A stretch of DNA of 64,000 nucleotides, from assembly GCA_030835385.1 (NCBI GenBank), contig JAURPI010000025.1:124001-188000 (forward strand), read 5' to 3'. The notes beneath the pieces were generated by a model that worked only from the letters and a program-made list of their open reading frames with translations, was not told the DNA's origin and made no database searches. A program made the position numbers and the translations under genes. Below, in pieces: positions 14,277 to 46,359 of this stretch; position 1 is the first letter of the stretch, and each line of letters starts with the position of its first letter. The stretch comes from Alphaproteobacteria bacterium (GTDB lineage Bacteria; Pseudomonadota; Alphaproteobacteria; Rhodospirillales; Rhodospirillaceae).

Positions 14277-14329
14277 ACTGAGTTGAAGTCACGCCGTTTG
14301 CGACACCGAATGGCTTAGAAAGGTTTTTT

Positions 14330-15109
14330 ATGGCGCCGGATACGGTGGAAAACAGCAATACACCAGATTCGCCAAAAGATGTCAGCGAAGAAGGTTTGAC
14401 GGTTGAGGGTCTTGGAAAGTCCTTCAAAGGCCGACCTGTATTGCGTTCCGTTAGTCTATCTGTACACCGGGGTGAAGCTGTCGGCCTGCTTGGTCCAAAT
14501 GGTGCGGGTAAAACGACATCCTTCTATTGTGTGACAGGTCTTATAAGTCCCGATGAGGGTCAGATATTTCTGGACGGTGAAAATATTACGCCGCTGCCGA
14601 TGTACCGCCGGGCTAGATTGGGGATCGGTTACTTGCCGCAAGAAGCATCGATCTTCCGTGGTATGACCGTTGAGGCAAATATTCGTGCTGTTGCTGAAGT
14701 CATCGAATCTGACAAGGACGCCCAGGACGAATTGGTCGAATCCTTGTTGGACGAATTTAATGTGGCTCACTTGAGGCAGTCGCCCGCTCTAGCACTGTCC
14801 GGTGGCGAGCGCCGCCGGGTCGAGATTGCACGTGCCTTGGCCTCGCGACCAAATTTTCTGCTTTTGGACGAACCGCTTGCAGGCATCGACCCAATCGCTG
14901 TTGCTGACATACGTGACCTTGTGTCCCATCTCAAAGATCGCGGTTTAGGCGTTTTGATTACTGACCACAATGTGCGTGAAACCCTGGACATCATTGATCG
15001 CGCGTACATCCTGCATGAAGGAACGGTGTTGATGGAGGGCGCCCCATCGGAAATCGTGGCCCATGAAGGGGTGCGCCGGGTGTACCTGGGAGAGCGCTTC
15101 AGTCTCTAG
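14330..15109 (+). CDS. lptB: LPS export ABC transporter ATP-binding protein
   Basis: GLLGPNGAGKTTSFYC Walker A, LSGGERRRVEIARALA signature, LLDEPLAGIDP Walker B. Confidence 0.97.
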   Translation: MAPDTVENSNTPDSPKDVSEEGLTVEGLGKSFKGRPVLRSVSLSVHRGEAVGLLGPNGAGKTTSFYCVTGLISPDEGQIFLDGENITPLPMYRRARLGIGYLPQEASIFRGMTVEANIRAVAEVIESDKDAQDELVESLLDEFNVAHLRQSPALALSGGERRRVEIARALASRPNFLLLDEPLAGIDPIAVADIRDLVSHLKDRGLGVLITDHNVRETLDIIDRAYILHEGTVLMEGAPSEIVAHEGVRRVYLGERFSL

Positions 15110-15130
15110 CGACGGGGGAGTCATTTAGAA

Positions 15131-16642
15131 ATGGCCATTGGCCCCCGCTTAGCTCTTCGGCAATCACAAAGTCTAGTCATGACTCCTCAGTTGCAGCAGG
15201 CTATTCGCCTGTTGCAATTGTCCGCCGCTGAACTGGTCGAGTATGTCGACCAGGAATTAGAAACCAATCCGCTATTGGAAAGAGATGAATCAAGCGGTGA
15301 AGGCTCCTTAAATGAGGCGATGGGTAACGCTGATGATCGATCAGAAGAGGGGATGAACATCGTTGATTCGGTCGACGAGCAACCTGATGTAGCGATTGAT
15401 ATTGACGAGGGGTTGACTGAAAACGATGCAGCTTACGACACAGACTCAGATGCCACCGGATCAACCATGGTTAGCGTTGAATCGTCTTCATCCAGTGGCG
15501 GCAGTTTTGATGACATGCAGTCTGACCTCGAACAGACCTTGTCCGAGGCCGAAGATTTAAGAAGCCATCTCGAGGGGCAATTAAGTCTTACGACGATGTC
15601 GGCGTCCGACCGGTTGATCGCAACAGCTTTGATCGACAGCCTCGACGAGAGTGGATATTTGGCCAGTGACTTCGACGCGCTGGCAGATCAGTTGGGTGCG
15701 TCGGTTGAGTCTATTGAATCGGTTCTTGAGACACTTCAAAAGTTCGACCCTGCCGGACTCTTTGCCCGTGACCTGAAAGAATGCCTGGTTCTTCAGCTTC
15801 GGGACCGCAATCGCTATGACCCCGTCATCGGTGCTTTGATCGATAACCTCGATCTGCTCGCCAAGCGTGACTTTGATCAACTCAAGACCCGGTGCAATGT
15901 CGATACAGAAGACTTGAGGGATATGATTGAAGAGGTGCGGGCGCTTGATCCAAAGCCCGCACTTAGGTTTGAAACATCGGTTAGTTATACGGTTATACCA
16001 GATGTTATCATGACCCCGACGCCAGACGGTGGCTGGCGGGTGGAACTCAATGCAGAAACTCTTCCTAAGGTACTGATCAACAATCAGTACTATTCAGAGC
16101 TGAGCCAGTCTGGAACCAGCAAAGAAGAAAAGACGTTCGTTGCTGAAAAATTTCAGTCTGCGACATGGCTAGTGCGCGCATTAGAACAACGAGCAACGAC
16201 CATCCTTAAAGTATCAACCGCTTTGGTTGCCAAACAGGACGCCTTTTTCAGAAAAGGAGTCACTTTTTTAAAGCCGCTTATTCTGAAAGACATTGCAGAG
16301 GATACAGAGCTGCACGAAAGCACCGTCAGCCGTGTCACCAACAACAAGTTTATTGCAACGCCACGGGGTATCTATGAACTGAAGTACTTCTTTAGTCATG
16401 GATTGACCCAGGGGGACGGTGAAGAGGCAACGTCCGCCGAGGCGGTGCGACACCGGATCAAGAAAATGGTCGACGATGAACCGGTCGATGCGGTGTTATC
16501 TGATGATCAAATCGTCGACAAACTACGTCAAAATGGCGTAAAGGTTGCCCGGCGAACGGTTGCTAAGTATCGGGAATCTTTAAAGATTCCTTCGTCAGTA
16601 CAGCGCCGCAGACAAAAAGCAAATGACCTGCCCCCAACATGA
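15131..16642 (+). CDS. rpoN: RNA polymerase sigma-54 factor
   Basis: N-terminal LRQSQSLVMTPQLQQAIRLLQLS and C-terminal ARRTVAKYRESLKIPSSVQRRR RpoN box. Confidence 0.98.
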   Translation: MAIGPRLALRQSQSLVMTPQLQQAIRLLQLSAAELVEYVDQELETNPLLERDESSGEGSLNEAMGNADDRSEEGMNIVDSVDEQPDVAIDIDEGLTENDAAYDTDSDATGSTMVSVESSSSSGGSFDDMQSDLEQTLSEAEDLRSHLEGQLSLTTMSASDRLIATALIDSLDESGYLASDFDALADQLGASVESIESVLETLQKFDPAGLFARDLKECLVLQLRDRNRYDPVIGALIDNLDLLAKRDFDQLKTRCNVDTEDLRDMIEEVRALDPKPALRFETSVSYTVIPDVIMTPTPDGGWRVELNAETLPKVLINNQYYSELSQSGTSKEEKTFVAEKFQSATWLVRALEQRATTILKVSTALVAKQDAFFRKGVTFLKPLILKDIAEDTELHESTVSRVTNNKFIATPRGIYELKYFFSHGLTQGDGEEATSAEAVRHRIKKMVDDEPVDAVLSDDQIVDKLRQNGVKVARRTVAKYRESLKIPSSVQRRRQKANDLPPT

Positions 16643-16925
16643 TGTCGAGGCTTCCTTGACTTGGCATAGGCTCCTGCATATGGTTCGCCGCCTCAGACAA
16701 AGGGGTGGTTAAAATCGTCTGTTAAACGGGCGAAAAAAAGGTCAAGACCAAGTTCTGATAAGAGCGGAAAATTAGACGAAACGAGAGCGTTTCGTAGACC
16801 CCTAAATAAAAATTGAATCGGGAGATATCCCTAGGATCGAAGCACAATTAGTGAATGCCAATACCCCGCACGTTTTCGGGGCAAAACATGGCAAGTGTTA
16901 GATCGGTCTGGGATGTGACTTGGGT

Positions 16926-17384
16926 ATGGAAATCAGAGATTTGTTACAGCCCGATGCTGTAATCACTTTGAAGGCATCGAGTAAGAAGCAAGTGCTACAA
17001 GAAATTGCCAAGAAAGCGGCTGTAGTTACCGGGCTTGGCGAGCGCAAAATTTTTGACACTTTACTCGAGAGAGAGCGGCTTGGCACAACAGGTGTGGGCA
17101 ACGGCATTGCTATTCCACATGGCAAGCTTGCCGAACTCAATGGTTTGTATGGTGTTTTTGCGCGCTTAGAGAAACCTGTCGACTTCGAAGCCATTGACGA
17201 TCACCCGGTCGATCTTATTTTCCTTTTATTGGCTCCCGAGCAAGCTGGTGCTGATCACCTCAAGGCTCTTGCTCGGGTGTCTCGCTTGCTACGTGACCCT
17301 GAGAATTGTGAAAAGTTGCGCGGTGCTGCGAATACCGACGGACTGTATATGGTGCTCATCCAGTCGGAAGCAGAAGCGGCTTAG
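16926..17384 (+). CDS. ptsN: PTS IIA-like nitrogen regulatory protein
   Basis: IPHGKLAELNGLYGVFARLEKPVDFEAIDDHPVDLIFLLLAPE EIIA-Ntr motif; ATG at 16926 (ORF 16920). Confidence 0.95.
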   Translation: MEIRDLLQPDAVITLKASSKKQVLQEIAKKAAVVTGLGERKIFDTLLERERLGTTGVGNGIAIPHGKLAELNGLYGVFARLEKPVDFEAIDDHPVDLIFLLLAPEQAGADHLKALARVSRLLRDPENCEKLRGAANTDGLYMVLIQSEAEAA

Positions 17385-18004
17385 TTTTTCTCTGTTGCCG
17401 CTGGTTGGAATGTCACCCGCGCTTGGTTAATCCGCATTCCTACCGTTATCCAACACATCGCTATAAAAACGTAGGACGCTGGGACAAACCACTCTGGTCG
17501 CGCGCAGACTAGTGCAAAAAATAATATTGTTTCTGTGCCTTCGGCCAACCCGCCAGAATAGAAAAATGACTTCTTGCCCCGATCCTTGGTTTCAACACCG
17601 CGTTTAGCCGCAATAACAGCAAACGCAAGAAACGACGCTCCAGTTCCAATAAAGCTGGCTATAAGAAAGGCTGCAACGACGGCGTTTTCGCGGTCTAAAA
17701 GGGCAAACCCTATGACAACAGTCGCATAGAATATGAAGTCCAATACGATGTCCAAATAGGCGCCGAAATCTGTTTTTTCTGTCGCGCGAGCAATGGCACC
17801 ATCTAACCCATCGGCAACGCGGTTCAGTGCAATGAGAATAAGGGCAACGGTCGGTGCATTAAGGGCCAACGCCGGGAGGGCGCCCACGCCAATAAAAAAG
17901 CCAACCACTGTCATCTTGTTTGCAGTGACCCCGTGCTGCGCCAAAATGCGTCCTGTCCAGTTGATTGGGGGGGCAATCAGACGCACCATGAAGGGATCAA
18001 GCAT
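17381..18004 (-). CDS. CDP-alcohol phosphatidyltransferase family protein
   Basis: RVADGLDGAIARATEKTDFGAYLDIVLDF matches DGxxAR...GxxxDxxxD; multiple TM segments. Confidence 0.9.
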   Translation of the reverse strand: MLDPFMVRLIAPPINWTGRILAQHGVTANKMTVVGFFIGVGALPALALNAPTVALILIALNRVADGLDGAIARATEKTDFGAYLDIVLDFIFYATVVIGFALLDRENAVVAAFLIASFIGTGASFLAFAVIAAKRGVETKDRGKKSFFYSGGLAEGTETILFFALVCARPEWFVPASYVFIAMCWITVGMRINQARVTFQPAATEKN

Positions 18005-30234: not shown

Positions 30235-31050
30235 TTAAAGGTATAATTCAGTAAACGTGCCGTCTACCAGGTGCTGACGAAGCGTGTTTTGCAAATCGAA
30301 CGTGTTCTCATGGGTTAGGGCTAGCTCTGTTGCTGTTCCCAGGGTTTCACCGGATGTAAGGGCGCGGAGCCATATCAATGTTTCCATTGGCACAACGCGC
30401 TGCATCACTGTGTGAGCCGGGCGCAATACAAACCCGCTTTCGGGATGCGAGAAGTCGATCTCAGGTACGCGATCCTGATCTGGCTGATTGACGTGCCATA
30501 GGGTGAAAATAGGGACGTCGGATTCAAGCAATCGAAGAGTCGGGGATACTGAAAACTTTATGTCAGCTATCTGTTCCGCCGGAACCTCAGCTAATCTTTC
30601 AGGGTTCAGGGCGGCGCTGTCGGCGGCAAAATAAGCTTCGACCCGGGTCCATTCCAGGCGTGCAACGTCGGGCAGATATGGCAAATCATTGGCGGGTGCA
30701 AAAGAACTAATAAAATCTGGCAGCGCGTCGCCATACCGAAATAGTGTCGGCTGTTGTGGCGGATGGGTTTTGATGAAGTCCTTCGCTAAGGCCTGAAAGA
30801 ATCGATCTCCGACTATGCGCTGAATTACTGGATAGGCAGCAGATAAAACATCGATCAAACTGTTCAGAGTATTGGCATGGTAAACACCCAATCGGCGTTC
30901 TATTGCACCGCGCGGTGTGGCAACATGTGGCAGCAAGGCCTCCACCGAATTGGTCAAGGCAACGTCTGCGAAGCTTTTCTGAAGGTCATGCAACACGGGA
31001 TGAGCCTTCAGATGAAGAGACCGAATCGATGTGACGCTGCGCGGTCTCAC
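30235..31050 (-). CDS. bufC: DUF2063 protein, BufC/HvfC-like partner of MNIO enzyme
   Basis: LHDLQKSFADVALTNSVEALLPHVATPRGAIERRLGVYHANTLNSLIDVLSAAYPVIQRIVGDRFF DUF2063; adjacent to MNIO gene. Confidence 0.85.
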   Translation of the reverse strand: MRPRSVTSIRSLHLKAHPVLHDLQKSFADVALTNSVEALLPHVATPRGAIERRLGVYHANTLNSLIDVLSAAYPVIQRIVGDRFFQALAKDFIKTHPPQQPTLFRYGDALPDFISSFAPANDLPYLPDVARLEWTRVEAYFAADSAALNPERLAEVPAEQIADIKFSVSPTLRLLESDVPIFTLWHVNQPDQDRVPEIDFSHPESGFVLRPAHTVMQRVVPMETLIWLRALTSGETLGTATELALTHENTFDLQNTLRQHLVDGTFTELYL

Positions 31051-31891
31051 CTTCGCCTAAGAGGACCTCAAGGTCAGGGATGTCTGTGTCCCACTCGATC
31101 AAAGTGGGTCGTGGTCCGAGTTTTTCTAACGCCAGCTTATATAGCGACCAAACTGGATCTGCGACGGTGTCTCCATGGGTATCAATTAAAAGACGATCTT
31201 CTCCATCCCCTTCTAAGGAGTGGCCGGCGAGGTGAATTTCACCCACGGCGTCTCCTGGGATTCCGTCGAGATAGGCAGTCGTATCAAACCCGTTGTTTTC
31301 CGCGCTGACATAAATGTTGTTGACGTCGAGCAGCAGTCCACAGCCGGTTCTTTGGGATAGCGCGGTTAAAAAGTCCCACTCGGTCAAAACTGAGTCCACG
31401 AACGTCAGATAGGAGGATGGATTTTCAACCAGTATTTGCTGTCCTAAGCGCTCCTGAGTCTGATCCACGTTTTGGGCAACAGTGACTAGAGCCTCTTCGG
31501 TGTAGGGAAGTGGCAGTAAGTCGTTCACGTATATGTCGTCGACAACGCTAAAAGATAGGTGTTCGGATACCAGCCCAGGCTCGAAGCGATCGACCAGGGT
31601 GCGCAACGCAGAGAGATGGTCCGCGTCAACGCCCTGCGCAGACCCTAACGATAAACCAACACCGTGGCAGCTGATCGCATAATGCTCACGCACTTGCTCT
31701 AGTTGCGCTATGCGTGGTCCACCAGCGGCAAAAAAATTCTCGCTATGGATTTCTATCCATGCCGCTGACGGCGTTCCAGACGCGAAATCAGACATGTGCG
31801 GATGACGAAGCCCGACTCCTGCTCGCGCAGGAATCGGGCCTGGCCGCACAGAGCGTGTCGAAGGCTGGTCCTGGGGAGGGGGAGAGGTCAC
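30986..31891 (-). CDS. bufB: DUF692/MNIO family protein, BufB-like
   Basis: PARAGVGLRHPHMSDF, WIEIHSENFF, SEHLSFS, LLDVNNIYVSAENNGFD, EIHLAGHS, DTHGDTVADPVWSLY motifs. Confidence 0.93.
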   Translation of the reverse strand: MTSPPPQDQPSTRSVRPGPIPARAGVGLRHPHMSDFASGTPSAAWIEIHSENFFAAGGPRIAQLEQVREHYAISCHGVGLSLGSAQGVDADHLSALRTLVDRFEPGLVSEHLSFSVVDDIYVNDLLPLPYTEEALVTVAQNVDQTQERLGQQILVENPSSYLTFVDSVLTEWDFLTALSQRTGCGLLLDVNNIYVSAENNGFDTTAYLDGIPGDAVGEIHLAGHSLEGDGEDRLLIDTHGDTVADPVWSLYKLALEKLGPRPTLIEWDTDIPDLEVLLGEGETAQRHIDSVSSSEGSSRVA

Positions 31892-31922
31892 CTTCGACGC
31901 TCGGTCAAAACGAAGGGTCGGC

Positions 31923-32228
31923 TTAGCCGGCCTTCATCTTGGCTTCTTCGTTTACGCCTTCGCCGGGCTCAAGATTGCCGCCCATTTCAACGCAGGTGCC
32001 TTCCGCAACAAGTTTCCATTCGCCTTTGTCGAATGCCACCGTGGATTGCCCCGCGCAGGAATGTGTTCCCGCCGCATTGGCGCATCCGTTCTCACCAGCT
32101 TTGGCGACGCCGTAGCATTTTTCTTTTCCGGCGGCTGACGCTGTCGAAGGAACGGTCATGGCGGCCATTGAAACCGCACCGGCAACGGCGGCGGCAAGTG
32201 AAAGCGTAGAGGGCTTGTTGTGTGACAT
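31923..32228 (-). CDS. bufA: DUF2282 bufferin-like precursor peptide
   Basis: Signal peptide followed by four-Cys core EKCYGVAKAGENGCANAAGTHSCAGQSTVAFDKGEWKLVAEGTCVEMGG; directly upstream of MNIO gene. ATG at 32228. Confidence 0.9.
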   Translation of the reverse strand: MSHNKPSTLSLAAAVAGAVSMAAMTVPSTASAAGKEKCYGVAKAGENGCANAAGTHSCAGQSTVAFDKGEWKLVAEGTCVEMGGNLEPGEGVNEEAKMKAG

Positions 32229-32414
32229 AGTGTACTCCATCTATGGTGCCGCAAAGGCGCGGCCTGAAAAGGGGTCTCCTGATCGACGGGTGCTTAGTAA
32301 CCCTCTCGACGTTACCATAATAGAAACGCCGTCGAGATTCGCCAATCACACGCGCGTGAAACGGTCTCACAGACGTGCGAGGAGGTTGGGTAGTGACGGC
32401 TAACGTGTTGGGGA

Positions 32415-35581: not shown

Positions 35582-37315
35582 ATGTTCTCACCAACTCCTA
35601 CCAGCAACGCCAGCCTGCCAAAACGATTGGCAGACTTTCCGACTCTTCCAGACGCTCTTGATTATGCGGCGCAGGGAGAAACCGGGTTTAATTTTTATTC
35701 TTCTCGGGGACATTTAAATGAGGTTCTGCCGTTCGCTGACCTGAGCGCAAAGGCCCGGGACGTGGCCACGAACCTTTGTGGCGCAGGCATTGTGTCTGGT
35801 GACCGTGTTGCGCTTCTTGCAGAAACGGTGCCTGCGTTTCTCATCGCTTTTTTTGCCTGCCAATATGCTGGTGTTATTCCGGTGCCAATGCCCACGCCCG
35901 TCGCGTTTGGTCGTCGCGATGCGTACGTCGGTCAAATTCGCAATCAAATCACATCGTCTGGCGCGGTCATGGTGATCACGCCGTTGGAATTTATGCCATT
36001 TGTTGAAGAGGCCACCGACGGACTTGATTTGCTGTTGATCGGGACATTGGATGATCTCAGGGCGCAGCCACAGGCTGATGGTCTTAGTGCAGGCGGTCCC
36101 GATGATCTCTGTTATCTGCAATACAGTTCTGGAAGTACGCGCTTTCCAAAGGGTGTGGCGGTAACTCACGACAACCTGATGGCCAATTGTGCTGCCATGA
36201 ACGTGGCGGTCAACGTATCAACTGAGGATCGCGGTGTATCCTGGTTACCGTTTTACCATGACATGGGTTTGGTGGGTTTCATGCTCGGTTGCCTCACCTC
36301 CCAAACAACTGTCGACTTTATTCCGACGGAAGAATTCGCTCGTCGTCCACTCGCCTGGCTCCGGATCATCAGTGAAAATCTGGGCACGATGTCCTACGGC
36401 CCCAGTTTTGGGTACGAGTTATGTAGTCGGAGATTCTCATCATCAAATGCTGCTGCCCCTAACTTAGATTTATCCAGCTGGCGCGTTGCGGGGATAGGCG
36501 GTGAGATGATTAAGCCGCAGGTCATGCACGCGTTTGCAGACTTGTTTAAGCCGTACGGGTTTGCAGATACGGCCTTTAACGCTTCTTATGGCTTGGCTGA
36601 ATGCGTGCTTGGCGTCAGTTTTAGCACGCCAGGGCACGGCATGTTGCTCGACCATATTTCAAAGCAGGAGTTGGGGGACAATCATCGCGCGGTTCCGATT
36701 GATGATGATGGTTCTGGAGCCGGTCGTACCTTTGTGGCCTGTGGTGGCGTGATTGACGGTCATACGGTCGAGATTCGTGATGACGACGGGGCGGTCATGG
36801 CAGAACGGGATATTGGCCGTGTCTTTTTCTCTGGTCCAAGTGTCATGCAAGGATATTTCGGTGATCAAGAGGCAACGGATGCCTGCCTTCAAGATGGGTG
36901 GCTGGATACGGGCGATCTCGGATATTTCTGGGGAGACCAGTTAGTTATTGTTGGGCGATCAAAAGATATGATGATCGTCAATGGACGCAATTATTGGCCG
37001 CAGGATATCGAATGGACCGTTGAACGCATGGACGGCATGAGGTCTGGCGATACCGCTGCATTCACTCTTGAGCAAGACGACGGTAGTGAACAACCAACCA
37101 TACTGGTGCAATGTAGACCCTCTGCCGCGGACATTCGCGAGGCATTGGTCGATGACGTGCGCTCAAGTGTCCAAAATCAAGTTGGATTGGCGTGTGACGT
37201 TATATTGGTGCCGCCGCGGACCTTGCCGAAAACATCATCCGGCAAGTTAGCGCGCGGCAAGGCCAAGGCGAACTTTCTCAGTGGCGAAATCCAACCCTTA
37301 GCCGCGGGCGCGTAG
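35582..37315 (+). CDS. fatty-acyl-AMP ligase, probable sphingolipid acyl-ACP synthetase
   Basis: LCYLQYSSGSTRFPKGVAVTHDNLMANCAAM FAAL signature; LPFYHDMGLVGFML; DTGDLGYFWGDQLVIVGRSKDMMIVNGRNYWPQDIEWT; followed by epimerase, ACP and SPT. Confidence 0.93.
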   Translation: MFSPTPTSNASLPKRLADFPTLPDALDYAAQGETGFNFYSSRGHLNEVLPFADLSAKARDVATNLCGAGIVSGDRVALLAETVPAFLIAFFACQYAGVIPVPMPTPVAFGRRDAYVGQIRNQITSSGAVMVITPLEFMPFVEEATDGLDLLLIGTLDDLRAQPQADGLSAGGPDDLCYLQYSSGSTRFPKGVAVTHDNLMANCAAMNVAVNVSTEDRGVSWLPFYHDMGLVGFMLGCLTSQTTVDFIPTEEFARRPLAWLRIISENLGTMSYGPSFGYELCSRRFSSSNAAAPNLDLSSWRVAGIGGEMIKPQVMHAFADLFKPYGFADTAFNASYGLAECVLGVSFSTPGHGMLLDHISKQELGDNHRAVPIDDDGSGAGRTFVACGGVIDGHTVEIRDDDGAVMAERDIGRVFFSGPSVMQGYFGDQEATDACLQDGWLDTGDLGYFWGDQLVIVGRSKDMMIVNGRNYWPQDIEWTVERMDGMRSGDTAAFTLEQDDGSEQPTILVQCRPSAADIREALVDDVRSSVQNQVGLACDVILVPPRTLPKTSSGKLARGKAKANFLSGEIQPLAAGA

Positions 37316-37325
37316 CGCGCCGGCC

Positions 37326-38270
37326 GTGACCGACCCACTGACCATCGCGATCACCGGGGCCACGGGATTTCTCGGCGGTCACCTCGTGGCGCAAGCACGG
37401 GCCGCTGGTCACCGTGTTCGTGCCTTATCACGCAAGCCGGTGAACACTAACACTAACCAAGATATCGTATGGATCACCGGCGCATTGGAAGATCAAGCCG
37501 CGCTTGAGACCTTGGTTACCGGTGCGGATATTGTGGTGCATGCGGCAGGAGCCATCAAAGCGCTGTCGCGATCTGAATTTTTTCATATCAATAAGGGTGG
37601 AACAGAGGCCGTCGTTCGTGCTGCGTATGCCCAAGGGGTGAAAAGCTTTGTATTGATCTCGTCTCTGGCCGCGCGTGAGCCAACGCTGTCACCCTATGCG
37701 GCAAGTAAACGAGCTGCGGAGTTGGTGGTCGATGACTATGCCGGTCAATTGAACACAATCATTCTTCGCCCGCCGGCCATATATGGGCCAGGCGATGAGG
37801 AGACTGTTAGTCTGTTCCAAATGGCTGTGAATGGATTCATGCTCGCTCCTGGGCACGCTTCTGCGCGCATGTCTCTGGTTCACGTTGGTGATGTCGCTTC
37901 AGCTATTTTGGCGTGTTGTGAACAGCCCCAATTCGAGGTGCTTTTTGAAATCGATGATGGCAAAGATGGCGGGTACCAATGGCGCGATCTGGCAGATGCT
38001 GCCGGTCTGAATGTCGGTCGCCCACTAAAAATTGCTCACCTAGCGGGCGCTGCAGTCTGGTTTATGGGGCTTTTGGGTACGTTAAAGGGCTTGCTGACCC
38101 GGTCTCCCGCTATGTTGACCTTGGCGAAAGTGCCAGAGCTTCGCCATCGTGACTGGGTGGCGAACGCCAAGCGTCCCGCTGGCTGGACCCCAAAGTGGTC
38201 TCTAAAAGACGGCTTCAAAGACGCAATCAATTGGTATTCCTCACAAAATGTTTTGAAACGTTACTTTTAA
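37326..38270 (+). CDS. NAD-dependent epimerase/dehydratase, ceramide-reductase-like (CerR-type)
   Basis: IAITGATGFLGGHLVAQARAAGHRVRALSR; SPYAASKRAAELVV; position between FAAL and ACP/SPT. GTG start. Confidence 0.88.
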   Translation: MTDPLTIAITGATGFLGGHLVAQARAAGHRVRALSRKPVNTNTNQDIVWITGALEDQAALETLVTGADIVVHAAGAIKALSRSEFFHINKGGTEAVVRAAYAQGVKSFVLISSLAAREPTLSPYAASKRAAELVVDDYAGQLNTIILRPPAIYGPGDEETVSLFQMAVNGFMLAPGHASARMSLVHVGDVASAILACCEQPQFEVLFEIDDGKDGGYQWRDLADAAGLNVGRPLKIAHLAGAAVWFMGLLGTLKGLLTRSPAMLTLAKVPELRHRDWVANAKRPAGWTPKWSLKDGFKDAINWYSSQNVLKRYF

Positions 38271-38374
38271 AGTTACTTGTCACTCTTCTGTCATACCTCC
38301 TAGGACTAAAGCGGAAGAGGAGTGGGATGTGAGACTCAGGGCGTCGCTTGTCCCCATATTGAAGGATTAATCAA

Positions 38375-38647
38375 ATGTCGGCTGAACCTAGCGATGGCGC
38401 GTCGCAAGACGTGCGAGCTGCGGTTCTGGAGGTTTTGCAAACTTTCAATAAGACCGGCGTGAACCTTGAGGATGGGACTCGGTTTACAGAAGACCTGAAT
38501 TTCGACTCACTTTTGGTCATGGAGTTCATCGCAGCTCTTGAAGACCGTCTCGATATATCGGTGCCGCTAAACGTGCTTCCGGATATCGAAACTGTGGGGC
38601 AATTGGTCGTCGCGACCGAACAAATTGTTAGGGAAGAACATGGCTGA
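38375..38647 (+). CDS. acyl carrier protein (dedicated, SPT-associated)
   Basis: 90 aa; FTEDLNFDSLLVMEFIAALEDRLDISVPLNVLPDIETVGQLV with DSL phosphopantetheine site; overlaps SPT start. Confidence 0.93.
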   Translation: MSAEPSDGASQDVRAAVLEVLQTFNKTGVNLEDGTRFTEDLNFDSLLVMEFIAALEDRLDISVPLNVLPDIETVGQLVVATEQIVREEHG

Positions 38648-39872
38648 CTTATTTGATCGTTTTGAGTCACTGCTGGCACGCCGAGACTCTTTAGTTGGCG
38701 ATGGGGGTCACGATCCGTTTCAAGTTGAGATGGATGAAGTGCTGTCACAGACCGAAGCCATGATTGGCAATCGTCGCACCATCTTGGCCGGTACCAACAA
38801 TTATCTTGGACTGACGTTTGCGCCAGAGTCATTGCAAGCCGCACATGATGCCCTTGAAGCGGCAGGTACGGGTACCACTGGCAGTCGTGTTGCTAACGGC
38901 ACCTATAGTGGTCACAAGGCATTGGAGCAGGCGTTGTGTTCTTTCCTTGGTAAAGACCACGCCATCGTTTTCTCTACTGGGTATTTAGCCAACCTCAGTG
39001 TCTTGTCGACATTGGTCGGTCCTGACGATTACATCCTTATGGATGCAGACTGTCACGCGAGCATTTATGATGGCGTGCGAATGGGTGACGCTCAGATTAT
39101 TCGATTTAAGCACAACGATGCGGCGGATTTAGATAAGCGGTTGGCGCGCCTCGCGAAGAAGCCGGGCAACAAGCTGATCGTTATTGAAGGTATTTATTCC
39201 ATGCTTGGGGATAAGGCGCCTTTGGATGACATTGTTGCTGTTAAGAAAAAATACGACGACGTATATCTTCTTAGTGATGAAGCGCATTCGCTCGGGGTCC
39301 TCGGTCGTTATGGTCGCGGATTGCCAGAAGAAGCTGACCTCGAAGACGATGTTGATTTTATTGTCGGCACTTTCTCTAAGAGTGTCGGTACCGTTGGCGG
39401 CTTCTGTGTTTCCAGTCACCCACAGTTTGATTTGCTGCGCTTAGCTTGTCGTCCATACATCTTCACAGCCTCCTTGCCGCCATCTGTAGTGGCGTCCGCC
39501 AAAGCGTCTCTGGAGTTAGTTGAAAAAGGTGGCGCGCTGCGCAAACGGTTGATGCGTAATGCGGAGCGCCTTCATTCAGGACTCTCTGCTCTCGGCTTTA
39601 CGCTTGGAGGAGAAATAAGCCCTGTGGTTGCTGTTGTGGCGCCAGAGGTGGAAATCGGTGTGGCGTTTTGGCGCGGACTGATTGACGGTGGTGTTTACGT
39701 CAACCTTGCACTTCCTCCTGCGACGCCACAGAACTTTACGTTGTTGCGGTGCAGTCTCTGTGCCGCTCACACGACGGAGCAGGTCGACCGTATCATCGAA
39801 GTCTTTGCCGATGTGGCCGACTCTCTTGTCATGCTACCGAAGCAACCAAAGAAGAAAGTGGCGCTCGGCTAA
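38640..39872 (+). CDS. spt: serine palmitoyltransferase / alpha-oxoamine synthase
   Basis: NNYLGLTFAPESLQAAHDALEAAGTGTTGSRVANGTYSGHKALEQAL; SDEAHSLGVLGRYGRG; VGTFSKSVGTVGGFC PLP-Lys motif. Confidence 0.93.
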   Translation: MADLFDRFESLLARRDSLVGDGGHDPFQVEMDEVLSQTEAMIGNRRTILAGTNNYLGLTFAPESLQAAHDALEAAGTGTTGSRVANGTYSGHKALEQALCSFLGKDHAIVFSTGYLANLSVLSTLVGPDDYILMDADCHASIYDGVRMGDAQIIRFKHNDAADLDKRLARLAKKPGNKLIVIEGIYSMLGDKAPLDDIVAVKKKYDDVYLLSDEAHSLGVLGRYGRGLPEEADLEDDVDFIVGTFSKSVGTVGGFCVSSHPQFDLLRLACRPYIFTASLPPSVVASAKASLELVEKGGALRKRLMRNAERLHSGLSALGFTLGGEISPVVAVVAPEVEIGVAFWRGLIDGGVYVNLALPPATPQNFTLLRCSLCAAHTTEQVDRIIEVFADVADSLVMLPKQPKKKVALG

Positions 39873-39893
39873 TAGTGTCCGCTGACTGAAGGA

Positions 39894-40805
39894 TTAGTTC
39901 AGTCCACCCTGCCGTTTTATCCTGAACAACAAGCGCAGACCAGTGAGAACCGGGTGTGCCCGATCGCGTTCTGTCAGTTCGACCGCAACGCCTGTATGGC
40001 GTTCAATTTTCCAAGCTGCATAGTCCAGTCCGCTGCGGAATGTGAAAGCTGCTTTGATCAGTCGTAAAACGTTGAGAAACCGCCCCCACCAGCGTCGTGC
40101 CCTCCACGCCCAAACCGCACCCGTGTCAGATTTTGCTTCTACCGTTTGGCCTAGGCCAAGCGTTTCAATGGCTGCGGCGCCAACGCGAATGAATCGATCG
40201 CGTTGGGCATTCACCAACTCTTCCGCTTTAGAAGGCGGTTCAGGCCGTAGTTCTGCCCGGTACGTGGCTTGGAAGGCAGTGATCCACAAATCTTCAATTG
40301 TATAGGGGCCGGCCATTAGCGGTGCCGTTTTCTTGAGGAGTGTTGCCACAGCGCGAGAGAGAGCGTGTTCAACAGTCGTGCGAGCGGCGTCATTATTGGC
40401 ATAAACAATGGCGGCTGGCTGCGCAAAGCGGGCCCACAGGGCCGATGCGAAAGTTGTTTCCGCCGTGCCGCGGGCAAATCCGCCGAGTGTCATTACAGCC
40501 ACTTTGGCGCGGACCACCCGACCGTCGAAGTCGCACTCGTGATAATAGACATTCGGTGACAGAAGGGCACCAAAGGCGGCGCTGACCGGGTTTTTGATCG
40601 CATCGCTGAGGTTGTCAACCAGCACATAGAAGTCGAGCATCAGGTTTTCGTCCGTGCCGAGACGAAGGCAAGACCCATAAAACACAACAGCGCGCACGCT
40701 GGCTCCATAGGTATTTTTTAGATGATCGATCATCGCCTCAGCGGCGGGAAAGGCGGCGACCTGGCTTTCGGATTGTATAAGTGACATCAGAGCCATGGCT
40801 ACCAC
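39894..40805 (-). CDS. nucleotidyltransferase-like protein, probable sphingolipid headgroup function
   Basis: VRAVVFYGSCLRLGTDENLMLDFYVLVDN resembles G-S...D-x-D nucleotidyltransferase pattern; overlaps the lipid kinase gene. Confidence 0.6.
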   Translation of the reverse strand: MVAMALMSLIQSESQVAAFPAAEAMIDHLKNTYGASVRAVVFYGSCLRLGTDENLMLDFYVLVDNLSDAIKNPVSAAFGALLSPNVYYHECDFDGRVVRAKVAVMTLGGFARGTAETTFASALWARFAQPAAIVYANNDAARTTVEHALSRAVATLLKKTAPLMAGPYTIEDLWITAFQATYRAELRPEPPSKAEELVNAQRDRFIRVGAAAIETLGLGQTVEAKSDTGAVWAWRARRWWGRFLNVLRLIKAAFTFRSGLDYAAWKIERHTGVAVELTERDRAHPVLTGLRLLFRIKRQGGLN

Positions 40806-41833
40806 CGTACAAAGCGAAGTGCTTGGTTGCCATCGATGGTGAGAGGTTTGTCCTCGCTGGCATCGTATAATTCGCCATCCAAAGTGTAGCTGCCGTCGAA
40901 GGCGAAGGTGATGGAGGCGGTGCGCCGAACTGTCCGCTTGTTACTTTGTTTTAGTAGGCGTCTCAGCATATTGGGGACGGTCGAAAGAACCGCACCTGCG
41001 CCTGGTCGAAGACTGATGTAGTGGACCGGGCCATCGCCAACTTTCGGGTCGGGGCGCATACCTAGAAGCATTTTATCCATGGTGGTTGCTATCACGACAT
41101 AAAAGCGCCCGTCCTGTTGCCATCCATTCTGTTCGCCGGTCACTTTAATGGTGCCGCCTTGTTTTCCGCCCGTCATTGCACGCCAGAACAAGATGGCCAC
41201 TGCGGCCACATGCGACACCGTATTTGGCCAACCGCGGGGGTAAATGTTTTTACGACAGTAAAGAATGCCATCAACCACATCTGCACCACCGAAAAATGCG
41301 CCGTGGCGTGTCGGTGCCCCATTTTGGTATAGCGCAAGTACGGGCTGAGTGTGAATGGCATTGGCCAGGTTGCCGTTGGCATTTTTCCTGAGAAGAGACG
41401 CGAGGGCTTCGCGCCGATCTCCAGACAGGCTCCAGGCCGCCGCTGTCATGTTCGTTTTGCCGGAAGGCAGTAACGCCAAGACCGGTGGGGAGGTGTAGGG
41501 GCCATCGTTGAGGAGGCCAGAGAACACCAACCCTGCGGTGCCGTCTCCGCCGTCGACCACGAGGGTTTCAATCTCATTGGCAGCGCATTGGGCAAGAATC
41601 GTAGGCACATCGGTGATTTTGTCGATGATGAAATGTTGAACACAGTCATGAGCAGCCACAATATCGTTCAGCCACCCGCGGTCCTGTTGATTGCGGGTGC
41701 TCATATGATTGCTGAGAATGGCGACCGATGGTGGGGGCAAATCACTAGACCTAAGATGGATAGAGAGAGGCTCTACTCGGCTTACATAATGTTTCAAAAG
41801 CTTTGATTTGACGATCTTGAACTTGCCCGCCAT
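40799..41833 (-). CDS. diacylglycerol/ceramide kinase-like (DAGK catalytic domain) protein
   Basis: ETLVVDGGDGTAGLVFSGLLNDGPY GGDGT motif; LLPSGKTNMTAAAWSL; C-terminal FAFDGSYTLDGELYDAS. Confidence 0.82.
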   Translation of the reverse strand: MAGKFKIVKSKLLKHYVSRVEPLSIHLRSSDLPPPSVAILSNHMSTRNQQDRGWLNDIVAAHDCVQHFIIDKITDVPTILAQCAANEIETLVVDGGDGTAGLVFSGLLNDGPYTSPPVLALLPSGKTNMTAAAWSLSGDRREALASLLRKNANGNLANAIHTQPVLALYQNGAPTRHGAFFGGADVVDGILYCRKNIYPRGWPNTVSHVAAVAILFWRAMTGGKQGGTIKVTGEQNGWQQDGRFYVVIATTMDKMLLGMRPDPKVGDGPVHYISLRPGAGAVLSTVPNMLRRLLKQSNKRTVRRTASITFAFDGSYTLDGELYDASEDKPLTIDGNQALRFVRW

Positions 41834-41951
41834 GGTGCGCTGGCTTGGACAGATTCCTCAAAAAAGGCTGGAAAACAGGCCTCGAGGGCGGCTAAGCGCT
41901 GACTCAGGGACCCAAAGGATAGCCGCCGCACACGTGGTGGCTTCGAGATTG

Positions 41952-43193
41952 ATGTTCAAAGCTCTCGACCTCTACCTCTTACGGCAGATCATGCCGACAC
42001 TGCTCGTCACCCTCCTGGTTGCGGCCATAATCTTGCTGCTCGAGCGGATGTTGCGGCTGCTCGATATTGCCGTGGGTAACGGTGTCTCGACCCTGGTTGT
42101 GTTTCAGATGCTGTTTAATTTGATTCCCCACTACATCGGTTTGGCGCTACCCGCTGCTTTGTTTCTGGGGGTGCTACTCGCGTTCCGCAAGCTCTCGTCG
42201 CAGTCTGAATTAGATGCGATTCAATCGTCAGGGATTGGTTTAAGCCGACTCATTCGATGGGCCGTGATATTGGGTCTGTTGATGATGATCTTTAATCTGA
42301 TTCTTGTCGGCTATCTGCAACCGATCAGCCGTTACGCCTATCGCGCTCTTTTGTTCAACGTGACCAGCGGTGTTTTAGAGTCTGGTATTGGCGAGGGCGT
42401 GTTTATGGATCTCCCCAACGGTTACACCCTCCGGGTTGAAGAATCTCGTGGGGCAGGTCGTGAGCTGTTTGGAGTATTTGCTCATCAACAAAAAGAGGAT
42501 GGCACTATCATTACGTTGACCGCGGAGCGAGGGCGCCTAGTCACAGGGGGCGCCGAACGCGCAACCAGTCTCCGTTTGTTCCAAGGTAACCGGTCTGAGT
42601 GGTCGCCGGGCGCAACCTCGGCCGACACAGTAAGCTTCGATGTGTTTGACTGGCCTCTCAATCTAAAAGATCTGATTCGGTTCCGCGTACGAGGTGGTGA
42701 TGAACGAGAGTTGACCTTGGATGAATTGTTGCGTGGTTATGTCGCCAATATGGAGGCGGAACGCACGGGCATCAGGCCTGGTGCAGTGAACCCACAAGAC
42801 AACCCTGAGCAACTGGTGCCACCGGCTGCGGTCGCGGCGGAGTTGCATGGTCGCATTGTCTTTTCGCTATCAATTTTGTTCTTGCCGATGCTGGCGGCCC
42901 CGCTAGGTATAATGACCCATCGGGCAAGCAAATCTTTTGGACTGGTTCTCGGCCTATTAACGTTGGTAGTCTATCACAAGATTCTGGAGTTTAGTGAAGC
43001 CTACGCAACGGTCGGGGGAATGTCGGCTGGGCCGGCCTTGTGGGTGCCCTTTGCCCTCTTTATTGGCGGGACATCATACCTATTTCTCAAGACCGAGATT
43101 GTCGCTGGGGCAACCCCAATGCAACGTCTTGAAGACCGATGGACCAATATGACCGGCGGTCTGATTCGACTGTTCCGCGGCAGCCGCGGCTAG
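41952..43193 (+). CDS. LptF/LptG family permease (LptF-like)
   Basis: MFKALDLYLLRQIMPTLLVTLLVAAIILLLERMLRLLDIAVGNG; HYIGLALPAALFLGVLLAFRKLSSQSELDAIQSSGIGL; ATG at 41952 in ORF 41808. Confidence 0.92.
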   Translation: MFKALDLYLLRQIMPTLLVTLLVAAIILLLERMLRLLDIAVGNGVSTLVVFQMLFNLIPHYIGLALPAALFLGVLLAFRKLSSQSELDAIQSSGIGLSRLIRWAVILGLLMMIFNLILVGYLQPISRYAYRALLFNVTSGVLESGIGEGVFMDLPNGYTLRVEESRGAGRELFGVFAHQQKEDGTIITLTAERGRLVTGGAERATSLRLFQGNRSEWSPGATSADTVSFDVFDWPLNLKDLIRFRVRGGDERELTLDELLRGYVANMEAERTGIRPGAVNPQDNPEQLVPPAAVAAELHGRIVFSLSILFLPMLAAPLGIMTHRASKSFGLVLGLLTLVVYHKILEFSEAYATVGGMSAGPALWVPFALFIGGTSYLFLKTEIVAGATPMQRLEDRWTNMTGGLIRLFRGSRG

Positions 43194-43205
43194 TACTCTA
43201 TTCCC

Positions 43206-44276
43206 ATGATTTTGTCCTGGTATCTCACGAAGGCCTACCTGTCGCGATTCTTTGCATTGCTGCTGGGCTTGGTCGTATTTCTGCAAATGCTAGACCTGCT
43301 GGCCAACGCGGATTCCGTGTTGGACGGTGGTGGTGACCCGGTCGACTCATTGGCGCGCTACATTATGTTGCGGGTGCCGTCGATCATTGAAACTGTTGCC
43401 CCTTTGGCTGCGCTCCTTGGCGGGCTAACGGCGCTGGTAGTTCTGGCCCGCAACAGCGAGATCATTGCTATGCGTGCGGCGGGTCGATCTGTGCTCAGTC
43501 TAGTCGGTGGCCTTGTGGTTGTTGGCATGGTGTTGGCACTCATGCTCTTTGCCTTCTCTGATGGTATAGTCGTGCGTTTCAACGCGCAGCTCGAGGATTG
43601 GAAAAGCACAGGCTACAAGCCTGGCGGTGAAATCGTTGATGGCAGTGAAGCGTGGGTGATTGAAGGTGACACCATCATCCGGGTTGGACACGTTCTACAA
43701 AACGGCGCCGTGCTCAATGACATTCGCCTGTTTCACCAAGGCGACAAAGCGACGGTCGCAGACATTATCAATATTCGTCTCGCGATTTGGGAAGATACTG
43801 GCTGGAACTTGTTCGAGGTGGCGCGTGTTGGTGGCAACGGTGTCGCGACCCCTGTTGGTCAGCCGACGTGGGAAACAAATCTTACGCCCGAAGATTTTAA
43901 CAAGCTCGCCAACCCACCCAGTGAATTGACCTTTGACGAATTAGAGCATTACGTACGCGAGCTCGCTCTCGGGACCCGCCCAGAATATTATTACGATACC
44001 TGGTTACAACGAAAATTGGCTGGACCTGCGGTGTTGGCTCTGATGCCATTGCTAGCGGCCATCGCGGCTTTCGCCCACCACCGTCAAGGTAGCGCTATCT
44101 TGGTTGTGGTCTATGGAATCTCGCTCGGTTTCGTTTTCATCATCACAGACAATATTTTGCTGGCGATGGGGCAGTTCGGCGCTCTGCCGCCGGTCGTGGC
44201 GGCCTGGCTGCCTTTGGCGCTGTTCGGCACCATAGGTTTATGGATTGTGGTAAACTTAGAGAACAGAGGCGCTTGA
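43206..44276 (+). CDS. LptF/LptG family permease (LptG-like)
   Basis: MILSWYLTKAYLSRFFALLLGLVVFLQMLDLL; IIETVAPLAALLGGLTALVVLARNSEIIAMRAAGRSV; 13 bp after LptF-like gene. Confidence 0.92.
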   Translation: MILSWYLTKAYLSRFFALLLGLVVFLQMLDLLANADSVLDGGGDPVDSLARYIMLRVPSIIETVAPLAALLGGLTALVVLARNSEIIAMRAAGRSVLSLVGGLVVVGMVLALMLFAFSDGIVVRFNAQLEDWKSTGYKPGGEIVDGSEAWVIEGDTIIRVGHVLQNGAVLNDIRLFHQGDKATVADIINIRLAIWEDTGWNLFEVARVGGNGVATPVGQPTWETNLTPEDFNKLANPPSELTFDELEHYVRELALGTRPEYYYDTWLQRKLAGPAVLALMPLLAAIAAFAHHRQGSAILVVVYGISLGFVFIITDNILLAMGQFGALPPVVAAWLPLALFGTIGLWIVVNLENRGA

Positions 44277-44363
44277 CCATCTACGTGATATGGCCAGGGG
44301 CTTGCGTTTATGCCGAACCGCGTTAGATACACTCGTATAGCGCGCTGCAAATAGGGAAAGAAC

Positions 44364-45179
44364 ATGGCATTAAAGATCGGCTTTTGGTCCGACCGGGAAT
44401 ACCACTTAGACCGAATGAATCTAGGTGATCTCGCTGCCGCGTACTTTCAATATTACGCCATAGCCGCGTATTTCGCGTTAGCTGCGGTGACAGGCGCCTA
44501 TGCGACTTGGGCTTGGATGAACGGTCTCGCGACCCTGACCGGAATTGCGGGCGCCGTTGTCGCGACGATTCTGATTTACCCATTGGTTTGGTATGTGTTG
44601 CACCGGTGGATTCTGCATTCCAAGTGGATGTGGAAATCCAAGCTTACCGCACCGGTCTGGAAGCGCATTCACTACGATCATCATTCCGATCCAAACAACC
44701 TCAAAGTTTTGTTTGGTGCACTCTATACAACCTTGCCAACCGTCGCTTTGGCTACGGTCCCTTTTGGGTTTGCTCTGGCTGGTTGGCCTGGTGCTGCTGC
44801 GGCTTTATGTGCAGGCGTTCTGCAAACGTGTTTCTACGAGTTTATCCATTGCATCCAGCACTTGGGGTATGTCCCCCAATGGGGCTGGGTTAAGCGCATG
44901 AAGAAGTTGCACATGGCCCACCACTTTCACAATGAGACTGGCAATTTCGGGATCACGAATTATTTGTGGGATCGTGTGCTCGGCACAATGTACGAGCAAA
45001 TTAAATTGCGACCCCGGTCAGAAACAGTGTTTAACCTTGGGTACGATGAAGAGGTAGCAAAGGACTATCCCTATGTGGCCGAGTTGACGCCCAACTGGCC
45101 GCATACCGCTAATCCAGTTCATCGTCAGCGTGAATATGCGCAAGAGTCTGATGATGGCGAACTCGCCCCCTCATCTTAA
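44364..45179 (+). CDS. sterol desaturase / fatty acid hydroxylase family protein
   Basis: Histidine clusters HRWILHS, HYDHHSDP, HHFHNETGNFGITNYLWDRVLGTMYE. Confidence 0.93.
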   Translation: MALKIGFWSDREYHLDRMNLGDLAAAYFQYYAIAAYFALAAVTGAYATWAWMNGLATLTGIAGAVVATILIYPLVWYVLHRWILHSKWMWKSKLTAPVWKRIHYDHHSDPNNLKVLFGALYTTLPTVALATVPFGFALAGWPGAAAALCAGVLQTCFYEFIHCIQHLGYVPQWGWVKRMKKLHMAHHFHNETGNFGITNYLWDRVLGTMYEQIKLRPRSETVFNLGYDEEVAKDYPYVAELTPNWPHTANPVHRQREYAQESDDGELAPSS

Positions 45180-45207
45180 CCGGACCTAACTGGTCACGGC
45201 GTTTTCT

Positions 45208-46359
45208 ATGACAGCATCAGACATCACAGTTCGGCCGGTCACCACGCGTGCGGACCAGGAAGCTTTCTTGGCGTTGCCAGACGCCTTGTTCAGCGATGAT
45301 CCAGTGTGGGTACCGCCGTTGAAAATGATGGTGCGCGACCAATTAAACCCAAAGAAGAATCCTTGGTTTAGTCACGGCGAAGCGCAGTTGTTTCTCGCTG
45401 AACGCAATGGCGCGGTGTTGGGACGACTCTCAGCCCAAGTCGACCGCAGTCACCTTGAGCAACACAATGATGCGACAGGCTTCTTTGGCTTTTTCGACAG
45501 TGTTGAAGAGCAACCGGTAGCAGACGCTTTGTTTGAAGCGGCTGAGAGTTGGCTCAAGGAGCGGGGCATATCCCGTGTGCGCGGGCCATTCAGTCTCAAC
45601 ATCAATGAAGAATCTGGCTTGCTAGTTGAAGGCTTTGAAAGTCCGCCGCGTGTCGCCATGGGCCACGGCCAGCCTTTCTATCAAACACTGGTAGAGGAGG
45701 CTGGATTTGAGAAAGTGCGAGACCTATTCGCGTTCCTAACACCCATGGATACGGCGCTGCCCTACAAACATATAAAGTTGTTGCAACGCTCTATCGACCG
45801 TAATCCGGGCCTCACATTCCGTCATCTCGATCCGAAACACTACGACGAAGATATTCGCATTCTCGTTGACCTGTTCAACGGAGCCTGGGCTGAAAATTGG
45901 GGATTTATTCCCCTAACCGAAGCTGACGCGAAGCATATGGCCAATAAATTCAAGATGATCCTGATTCCAGAGTTGGTCTGGTTTGCGTTCTACGAAGGAA
46001 AGCCGGCCGCAATGGCGGTGGCATTGCCCGACCTTAATGAAATGATCCGTGATCTCGGCGACACCCTGTGGCCTATGGGCTGGATGAAACTGGCGTGGCG
46101 GGTTCTCACCCGCCGCACCTGGTCATCTGGGACGCGGGTTCCACTCATGGGCGTTGCCCCGCGGTTTAAAAACAAACCTCTTGGATCGGTGTTGGGCTTT
46201 ATGGTGATGGATGCGATCCGCCGCGAATCTCTCAAACTCAATATGCCGGTCTGCGAAATGAGTTGGGTGCTGGAAGATAACACCCAAACCCGCCACTCCC
46301 TCGAAACCATCGGTGGCCGGGTCTACAAAACCTACCGGATGTACGAGAAAGCGCTTTAG
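45208..46359 (+). CDS. GNAT-type N-acyltransferase, candidate bacterial ceramide synthase (bCerS-type)
   Basis: DPVWVPPLKMMVRDQLNPKKNPWFSHGEAQLFLAERNGAVLGRLSAQVDRSHLE; RVRGPFSLNINEESGLLVEGF; same neighbourhood as spt/ACP. Confidence 0.8.
   Translation: MTASDITVRPVTTRADQEAFLALPDALFSDDPVWVPPLKMMVRDQLNPKKNPWFSHGEAQLFLAERNGAVLGRLSAQVDRSHLEQHNDATGFFGFFDSVEEQPVADALFEAAESWLKERGISRVRGPFSLNINEESGLLVEGFESPPRVAMGHGQPFYQTLVEEAGFEKVRDLFAFLTPMDTALPYKHIKLLQRSIDRNPGLTFRHLDPKHYDEDIRILVDLFNGAWAENWGFIPLTEADAKHMANKFKMILIPELVWFAFYEGKPAAMAVALPDLNEMIRDLGDTLWPMGWMKLAWRVLTRRTWSSGTRVPLMGVAPRFKNKPLGSVLGFMVMDAIRRESLKLNMPVCEMSWVLEDNTQTRHSLETIGGRVYKTYRMYEKAL

Follow-up and report, generated by a model that had tools for sequence, protein, structure and literature searches.

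Phosphosphingolipids can support the survival of Caulobacter without LPS and set its sensitivity to polymyxin; this may also apply to marine relatives. In Caulobacter, ceramide phosphoglycerate (CPG) requires CpgB and CpgC, and the formation of CPG2 involves CpgA, CpgD, CC_1153 and, in part, CC_1158 (PMC11324152, PMC12275187). An activated-ceramide step has already been proposed for CC_1161 (PMC11324152), and the mechanism by which CpgC leads from ceramide-1-phosphate to CPG is described as unidentified (PMC12275187, PMC13228409). The ceramide gene set of E. coli BL21 is treated in the literature as orthologous to that of Caulobacter, YghO and CC_1154 are both listed as the N-acyltransferase gene (PMC9386255), and the order of the CerS and CerR steps is disputed.

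The locus described here comprises ten genes in ~11 kb (35582..46359) of the window, i.e., the whole stretch of 64,000 nucleotides that was analysed, from an uncultured marine alphaproteobacterium. All the ORFs listed in the first-pass annotation sit at the positions and on the strands given there. The annotation had proposed a check of synteny across related genomes, and this revealed that the ten-gene order is identical within the genus and the family, and that similar orders exist throughout the class as well as in Nitrosomonas, Nitrospirales, and other groups. Cultured relatives with the cluster include Pelagibius and Fodinicurvata. Such conservation is far beyond chance. Scans for promoters and terminators gave matches at chance level. 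We consider it probable that the locus serves to make and export phosphosphingolipids and is a reduced form of the Caulobacter type. The system is of a known kind, and the variant is new.

The ceramide backbone genes

The first four genes lie in tandem on the + strand, and their positions, strands, and families agree with the initial description of a FAAL, a CerR-like epimerase, a DSL-motif ACP, and an SPT. The first (35582..37315) encodes a fatty acyl-AMP ligase or acyl-AcpR synthetase of the AasR type, matching NCBIfam NF006624 at 774.6 bits (cut-off 600) and forming a reciprocal best hit with ECD_02851 of E. coli BL21 (44% identity). It is followed by a CerR-type reductase of the extended SDR class (37326..38270; PF01370, Epimerase family; reciprocal best hit ECD_02852, 36%) and by the specialised acyl carrier protein AcpR with its DSL motif (38375..38647; PF00550; reciprocal best hit ECD_02853, 38%). 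The stop of acpR is overlapped by the start of the serine palmitoyltransferase (SPT, 38640..39872), which forms a reciprocal best hit with ECD_02854 (53%).

SPT, KBL, and AONS belong to one superfamily, which leaves room for a locus not devoted to sphingolipids, where the SPT-like enzyme would be KBL, AONS, or a further alpha-oxoamine synthase and would form some other amino ketone. The scores already refute this alternative, to which we give next to no credence. The protein matches the SPT equivalog NF047599 at 621.7 bits (cut-off 500), and it falls below the equivalog cut-offs of KBL (306.7 bits vs 460) and BioF (315.1 vs 426.45). Among PDB entries, it ranks the SPT 2x8u first (E 8.8e-149), before KBL (2.5e-65) and AONS (2.4e-51). 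By these scores it sides with SPT, and the grouping with KBL or AONS that the first-pass annotation named as evidence against an SPT is not seen. The five partner genes, all present and matching the E. coli set, also argue against a different amino ketone.

The fifth ceramide gene closes the locus (45208..46359, + strand). The large GNAT proposed to be a bacterial ceramide synthase is indeed one of the bCerS/YghO type: it and E. coli YghO are reciprocal best hits (38%), it occupies the position of CC_1154 in a Caulobacter-type cluster, it is 45% identical to the copy in Roseomonas, and its structure prediction gives a tandem GNAT fold (best E 6e-15). The five ceramide gene types noted within ~11 kb are therefore all found in 35582..46359, each a reciprocal best hit of the E. 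coli BL21 set, and the assignment of the ceramide backbone is secure. The locus had been called probably complete, which is correct for ceramide but not for the CPG2 headgroup of Caulobacter, as CpgA and CpgD are missing. In the proposed pathway, AasR would load a fatty acid on AcpR, SPT would condense the acyl chain with serine to give 3-oxo-sphinganine, and N-acylation by CerS together with reduction by CerR would yield dihydroceramide.

The kinase and nucleotidyltransferase pair and the headgroup

The pair of genes on the - strand, initially described as a nucleotidyltransferase and a lipid kinase, is now refined to a CpgC/CpgB headgroup module. Both of these CPG/CPG2 pathway genes are present by family and position, and their activities are predicted. 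The putative ceramide kinase CpgB (40799..41833) matches DAGK_cat, finds YegS-type lipid kinases in a profile search, is only 26% identical to the Roseomonas copy, and lies next to CpgC in the family as well as in most relatives. The nucleotidyltransferase (39894..40805), of the CpgC/CC_1161 type and Tam41-like, is 37% identical to its Roseomonas copy. Among 337 genomes of the class, CpgC is present in 37 of the 44 with CerS and in 1 of the 293 without it. Searching Pfam and the PDB with the single CpgC sequence gave no useful match and no Pfam family; a hit to DUF4126 (E 0.016) was discarded. Tam41 was not recovered with a profile of 9 rows; a profile of 62 rows did match it, and a fold search with the AlphaFold model of CpgC also led to Tam41. 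The best 80 of 445 relatives of CpgC were examined, and none of these 80 is from Caulobacter. The orthology of CpgB and CpgC to the Caulobacter proteins is thus a putative one, resting on family, position, and the Roseomonas intermediate.

Tam41 is the mitochondrial CTP-dependent CDP-DAG synthase. CpgC shares with it the fold and the motifs YGS, D, K, R-F-x-x-P, and Y..(D/E)x-R, but identity is only about 17-19%, and the predicted substrate of CpgC is instead ceramide-1-phosphate. A Tam41-like CpgC predicts a CTP-dependent step, in which the enzyme would act with CTP on ceramide-1-phosphate to form a CDP-ceramide intermediate, the end product being a ceramide phosphodiester, most likely CPG. 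We put forward tentatively, at somewhat less than even confidence, that CpgC may be a Tam41-type CTP:ceramide-1-phosphate cytidylyltransferase, that the headgroup would be added via CDP-ceramide, by analogy with CDP-DAG, and that the family's reduced cluster, with CpgB and CpgC but without CpgA and CpgD, would be the minimal natural form of this route. With a kinase/CpgC pair and without the CPG2 genes, the locus offers a compact test case for the headgroup step.

The Tam41-like character of CpgC would also suit a headgroup other than glycerate, if a housekeeping or unlinked CDP-alcohol phosphotransferase placed glycerol, serine, or inositol phosphate on the CDP-ceramide made by CpgC. Three CDP-alcohol phosphotransferases are encoded in the genome; one is of the archaetidylinositol-phosphate-synthase type, below the cut-off. 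However, the cluster lacks a linked dedicated transferase and CPG requires CpgB and CpgC in Caulobacter (PMC11324152), which makes such a headgroup rather unlikely.

The genes for a second phosphoglycerate were searched for in the family and in the genome. CpgA and CpgD are found in none of the 17 clusters of the family, and the genome has neither a CpgA homologue at E 1e-3 nor a genus-conserved homologue of CpgD. A CpgD-like NTP transferase (35%) on contig C38, which adjoins a groEL-like ORF and is not conserved in the genus, was rejected. An unlinked locus carries a CC_1153-like NTP transferase (31%) beside a CC_1166-like flippase; both are homologues at 30-38%, kept in the genus and the family, so the CC_1153-like gene is unlinked and not missing. 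Since it lies beside a flippase in this unlinked locus, the headgroup may be more complex than CPG. Full CPG2 might still be made if unrelated enzymes replaced CpgA and CpgD, for example this NTP transferase and the CDP-alcohol phosphotransferase at 17381-18004, which occurs in 9 of 15 relatives with CpgC and 2 of 46 without it. The latter is absent, however, from two genomes of the same genus with the whole cluster (G005 and G006), so it is only a lead as a headgroup transferase. Considering also the lack of CpgA and of a conserved CpgD, we deem this route to CPG2 unlikely. The headgroup is probably a mono-phosphoglycerate and not that of CPG2.

The hydroxylase and the second LptF/LptG pair

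The fatty-acid hydroxylase of the first-pass annotation (FAH, 44364..45179, + strand) matches PF04116 (FA_hydroxylase) and can be specified as a Scs7-like di-iron enzyme tied to CerS (E 1.3e-9 with Scs7). Its His clusters are invariant across 27 homologues. The assignment to Scs7/FA2H is one of domain similarity and His clusters. In the same 337 genomes, FAH is found in 32 of the 44 with CerS and in none of the 293 others, and it immediately precedes CerS in 28 of these 32. Scs7 is the ceramide fatty acid 2-hydroxylase of yeast. It shares with FAH the hydroxylase domain and the His clusters, whereas FAH lacks a cytochrome b5 domain and has as its partner a ceramide synthase of the bacterial tandem-GNAT type. 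FAH is predicted to be a ceramide N-acyl hydroxylase, i.e., it would hydroxylate the lipid, most likely on the N-acyl chain. We found no description of a Scs7-like hydroxylase beside a bacterial CerS in the open-access literature.

What had been annotated as LptFG-like consists of two proteins, LptF then LptG, forming a second set of these inner-membrane components of the LPS exporter. LptF2 (41952..43193, + strand; PF03739, TIGR04407) has its conserved start at 41952, downstream of the listed ORF start at 41808, and LptG2 (43206..44276, + strand) matches TIGR04408 above the cut-off. Genome search and tree place both as additional to the canonical pair, the other LptF adjoining LptD and the other LptG lying on contig C26. 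The genome has one match to LptC and no second one that would correspond to LptC2 (CC_1168). In the proposed mechanism, LptF2G2 would draw the lipid out toward the outer membrane with energy from a shared LptB, the single LptC providing the link. LptF2G2 may have a housekeeping role. The cited literature holds no demonstration of sphingolipid transport by LptF2G2 in any organism, and one could regard the LptF/LptG and CpgC/CpgB pairs as coincidental neighbours without a role in sphingolipids. Yet their linkage and co-occurrence across the class and beyond make coincidence very improbable, and the locus agrees with the notion that a second LptFG exports sphingolipids. The product is likely an N-acyl-hydroxylated anionic phosphoceramide moved outward by LptF2G2. 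The original proposal of a modified anionic or hydroxylated ceramide that is made and exported is in this way supported as an interpretation, in which we infer the lipid structure and the export.

Comparison with described loci

The E. coli BL21(DE3) cluster yghO-aasR-epi-acpR-spt-lptG-lptF (PMC9386255) has in common with the locus the five ceramide genes and adjacent LptF and LptG, its LptF2 being weakly similar to the one described here. Unlike our locus, it lacks CpgB, CpgC, and the hydroxylase. The cluster on plasmid p1318-4 of Roseomonas marmotae (NZ_CP061095), whose layout follows the published gene order of Caulobacter (PMC11324152), shares AcpR-SPT-CpgC-CpgB-LptF2-LptG2-CerS, with AasR nearby. 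It also holds a flippase, CpgA, a CC_1153-like gene, and CpgD, but lacks FAH. The ceramide/CPG2 locus CC_1168-CC_1152 of Caulobacter crescentus (PMC11324152, PMC12275187, PMC10331486) has the common order AasR-CerR-AcpR-SPT, CpgC-CpgB, LptF2-LptG2, CerS. In contrast to it, the locus described here has no CpgA, CpgD, CC_1158, or LptC2, and its CC_1153-like gene and flippase are unlinked. The N-acyl hydroxylase of Caulobacter is the DesA-type CC_0202, located elsewhere, whereas a Scs7-like hydroxylase precedes CerS here. This hydroxylase family, tied to the bacterial ceramide synthase throughout the class, appears to correspond to the DesA-type enzyme of Caulobacter, to which it is unrelated.

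Ceramide backbone genes and their neighbourhood

The first-pass annotation had proposed a probable complete sphingolipid locus at 35582-46359, and its ten ORFs lie where it placed them. Using Pfam and NCBIfam, the first four genes, all on the forward strand, were assigned to the families fatty acyl-AMP ligase (AasR, 35582-37315), extended SDR (CerR, 37326-38270), ACP (AcpR, 38375-38647), and SPT (38640-39872). CpgC (39894-40805, -) was assigned no family, and the remaining genes matched DAGK_cat (CpgB, 40799-41833, -), LptF (LptF2, 41952-43193, +), LptG (LptG2, 43206-44276, +), FA_hydroxylase (FAH, 44364-45179, +), and, marginally, GNAT (CerS, 45208-46359, +). The neighbours on either side (alpha/beta hydrolase, DUF2282/MNIO operon, small GNAT, TauD, HpcH, and HpaB) are unrelated to the cluster, which sets its limits at about 35.5-46.4 kb. 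Among them, consecutive genes for a small Cys-containing DUF2282 protein, an MbnB/TglH/ChrH-family (DUF692) enzyme, and a DUF2063 protein (30235-32240, -) look like a bufferin-type RiPP operon.

The assignment of the ceramide-backbone genes is close to certain. SPT scores 621.7 bits against NF047599 (cut-off 500), the KBL and BioF models score well below their own cut-offs on the same protein, and solved structures rank as SPT (8.8e-149), KBL (2.5e-65), and AONS (2.4e-51). CerS is the reciprocal best match of E. coli YghO (38% identity), and its predicted structure (pLDDT 87.8) retrieves tandem GNAT proteins (best E 6e-15). Hence, SPT does not group with KBL or AONS, the large GNAT is of the bCerS type, and the annotation of both stands. 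Each of the five backbone proteins has its reciprocal best hit in the E. coli BL21(DE3) yghO-aasR-epi-acpR-spt cluster, to which the search on the E. coli side was confined (SPT 53%, AasR 44%, AcpR 38%, CerR 36%). The E. coli genes spt, aasR, acpR, yghO, and epi have been paired with Caulobacter CC_1162, CC_1165, CC_1163, CC_1154, and CC_1164, and the in vivo activity of E. coli AasR, AcpR, and SPT was demonstrated (PMC9386255). In E. coli BL21, an LptF/LptG pair and a flippase adjoin spt (extracted locus L207:4283-14843), and 4105 of 5426 complete E. coli genomes have close spt matches.

The source assembly comprises 3.28 Mb in 47 contigs. As the first-pass annotation had suggested checking, gene order is conserved: AasR-CerR-AcpR-SPT forward, CpgC-CpgB reverse, and LptF2-LptG2-FAH-CerS forward recur in the genus and family. 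Named relatives, taken from the best 80 of 445 CpgC relatives, are uncultured 'Rhodospirillaceae' MAGs, many with aquatic names, suggesting a marine habitat. One same-genus bin (G004) holds two cluster versions (L007 and L020; CpgC 87% and 71% identical to ours), the second with SPT split across two frames; the bin is probably mixed or misassembled. SPT-CpgC-CpgB-DUF2141-LptF2 clusters of a single type occur on contigs labelled Kuenenia and Rhizobium (L120, L130, L135), labels that look like mis-binning or mis-naming.

CpgC and the expected headgroup

The profile of 62 CpgC sequences matched Tam41 (6ig2, E 2.1e-5), with aligned motifs YGS, D, K, RF..P, Y..(D/E)(I/L)R, and E, and its key columns are invariant. 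For the AlphaFold model (pLDDT 88.9, pTM 0.86), the three highest-ranking PDB matches were all Tam41 (best E 1.4e-7), with moderate overlap (TMq 0.45-0.48), above aminoglycoside nucleotidyltransferases. CpgC is found in 37 of 44 genomes with CerS and 1 of 293 others in a class sample (n=337), which ties it to ceramide. Since Tam41 activates phosphatidate with CTP, the natural prediction is that CpgC would activate ceramide-1-phosphate with CTP; CDP-ceramide as an intermediate is likewise a testable prediction. Previous work pointed out that CC_1161 carries an InterPro domain of CDP-DAG synthases and discussed a possible activation step (PMC11324152), and the mechanism has been described as unidentified (PMC12275187, PMC13228409).

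We took the Roseomonas marmotae plasmid cluster as reference for headgroup genes. Its order (flippase-AcpR-SPT-CpgC-CpgB-CpgA-metallophosphoesterase-DUF2141-HIT-LptF2-LptG2-CerS-NT1153-CpgD-AasR) matches the one published for Caulobacter (PMC11324152). Family, position, and this intermediate suggest that our CpgB and CpgC are orthologous to CC_1160 and CC_1161. All 17 family clusters in which both CpgC and CerS could be seen have CpgB and FAH, and none has CpgA, NT1153 (a CC_1153-like NTP transferase), CpgD, metallophosphoesterase, or HIT; in other groups, 43 of 45 clusters have at least one of CpgA, NT1153, and CpgD. A genome-wide search found no CpgA homologue at E 1e-3, and the only CpgD candidate, an NTP transferase of 35% identity that adjoins a groEL-like ORF and is not conserved in the genus, was rejected. 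In Caulobacter, ceramide phosphoglycerate (CPG) requires CpgB and CpgC, and CpgA, CpgD, and CC_1153 act in forming the diphosphoglycerate CPG2 (PMC11324152, PMC12275187). Given these roles and the missing CpgA and CpgD, the expected product would be CPG or a similar single-step phosphoceramide. The product is very likely a phosphoceramide; its identity as CPG, as opposed to a lipid with a different headgroup, is a testable prediction. Doubt over a single step comes mainly from a surviving NT1153-like gene, divergent from a CC_1166-like flippase (contig C10 of the source genome, L211:6694-9046). This pair, retained in the genus and family, forms a second, unlinked sphingolipid-type locus. One of the genome's three CDP-alcohol phosphotransferases (17381-18004, -, near the lpt operon) is a possible headgroup enzyme, found in 9 of 15 relatives with CpgC and 2 of 46 lacking it; its absence from two same-genus genomes with the whole cluster makes it a lead only.

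Predicted export and hydroxylation

The genome encodes four LptF/LptG-type proteins. The other LptF adjoins LptD and SurA, the other LptG lies on a separate contig, and in a tree (moderate support, some long branches) LptF2 and LptG2 fall among copies from sphingolipid clusters, not with these two. In Caulobacter, a role in carrying sphingolipids was proposed for LptC2, LptF2, and LptG2 (PMC11324152). The single LptC match here lies in the canonical kdsD-lptC-lptA-lptB-rpoN-ptsN operon (11711-17384, +), about 20 kb from the cluster. LptF2G2 would need to share LptC and LptB, and its presumed sphingolipid cargo is testable.

The sole informative PDB match of FAH is Scs7 (E 1.3e-9), and ten His residues are fully conserved across 27 homologues. 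In the same class sample, FAH is found in 32 of 44 genomes with CerS and none of the 293 others, and in 28 of the 32 it precedes CerS on the same strand at a distance of 24-165 bp; the Fisher test of this association treats related genomes as independent. The four CerS genomes of family f38 lack FAH and have a DesA-type desaturase resembling one beside CerS in Sphingomonas; the Caulobacter N-acyl hydroxylase is also DesA-type (PMC11324152). FAH is thus likely an alternative ceramide hydroxylase, and the match to Scs7 favours N-acyl C2 as the putative position. Overall, the locus is a reduced version of an already known type of system, and its hydroxylase is of a different kind.
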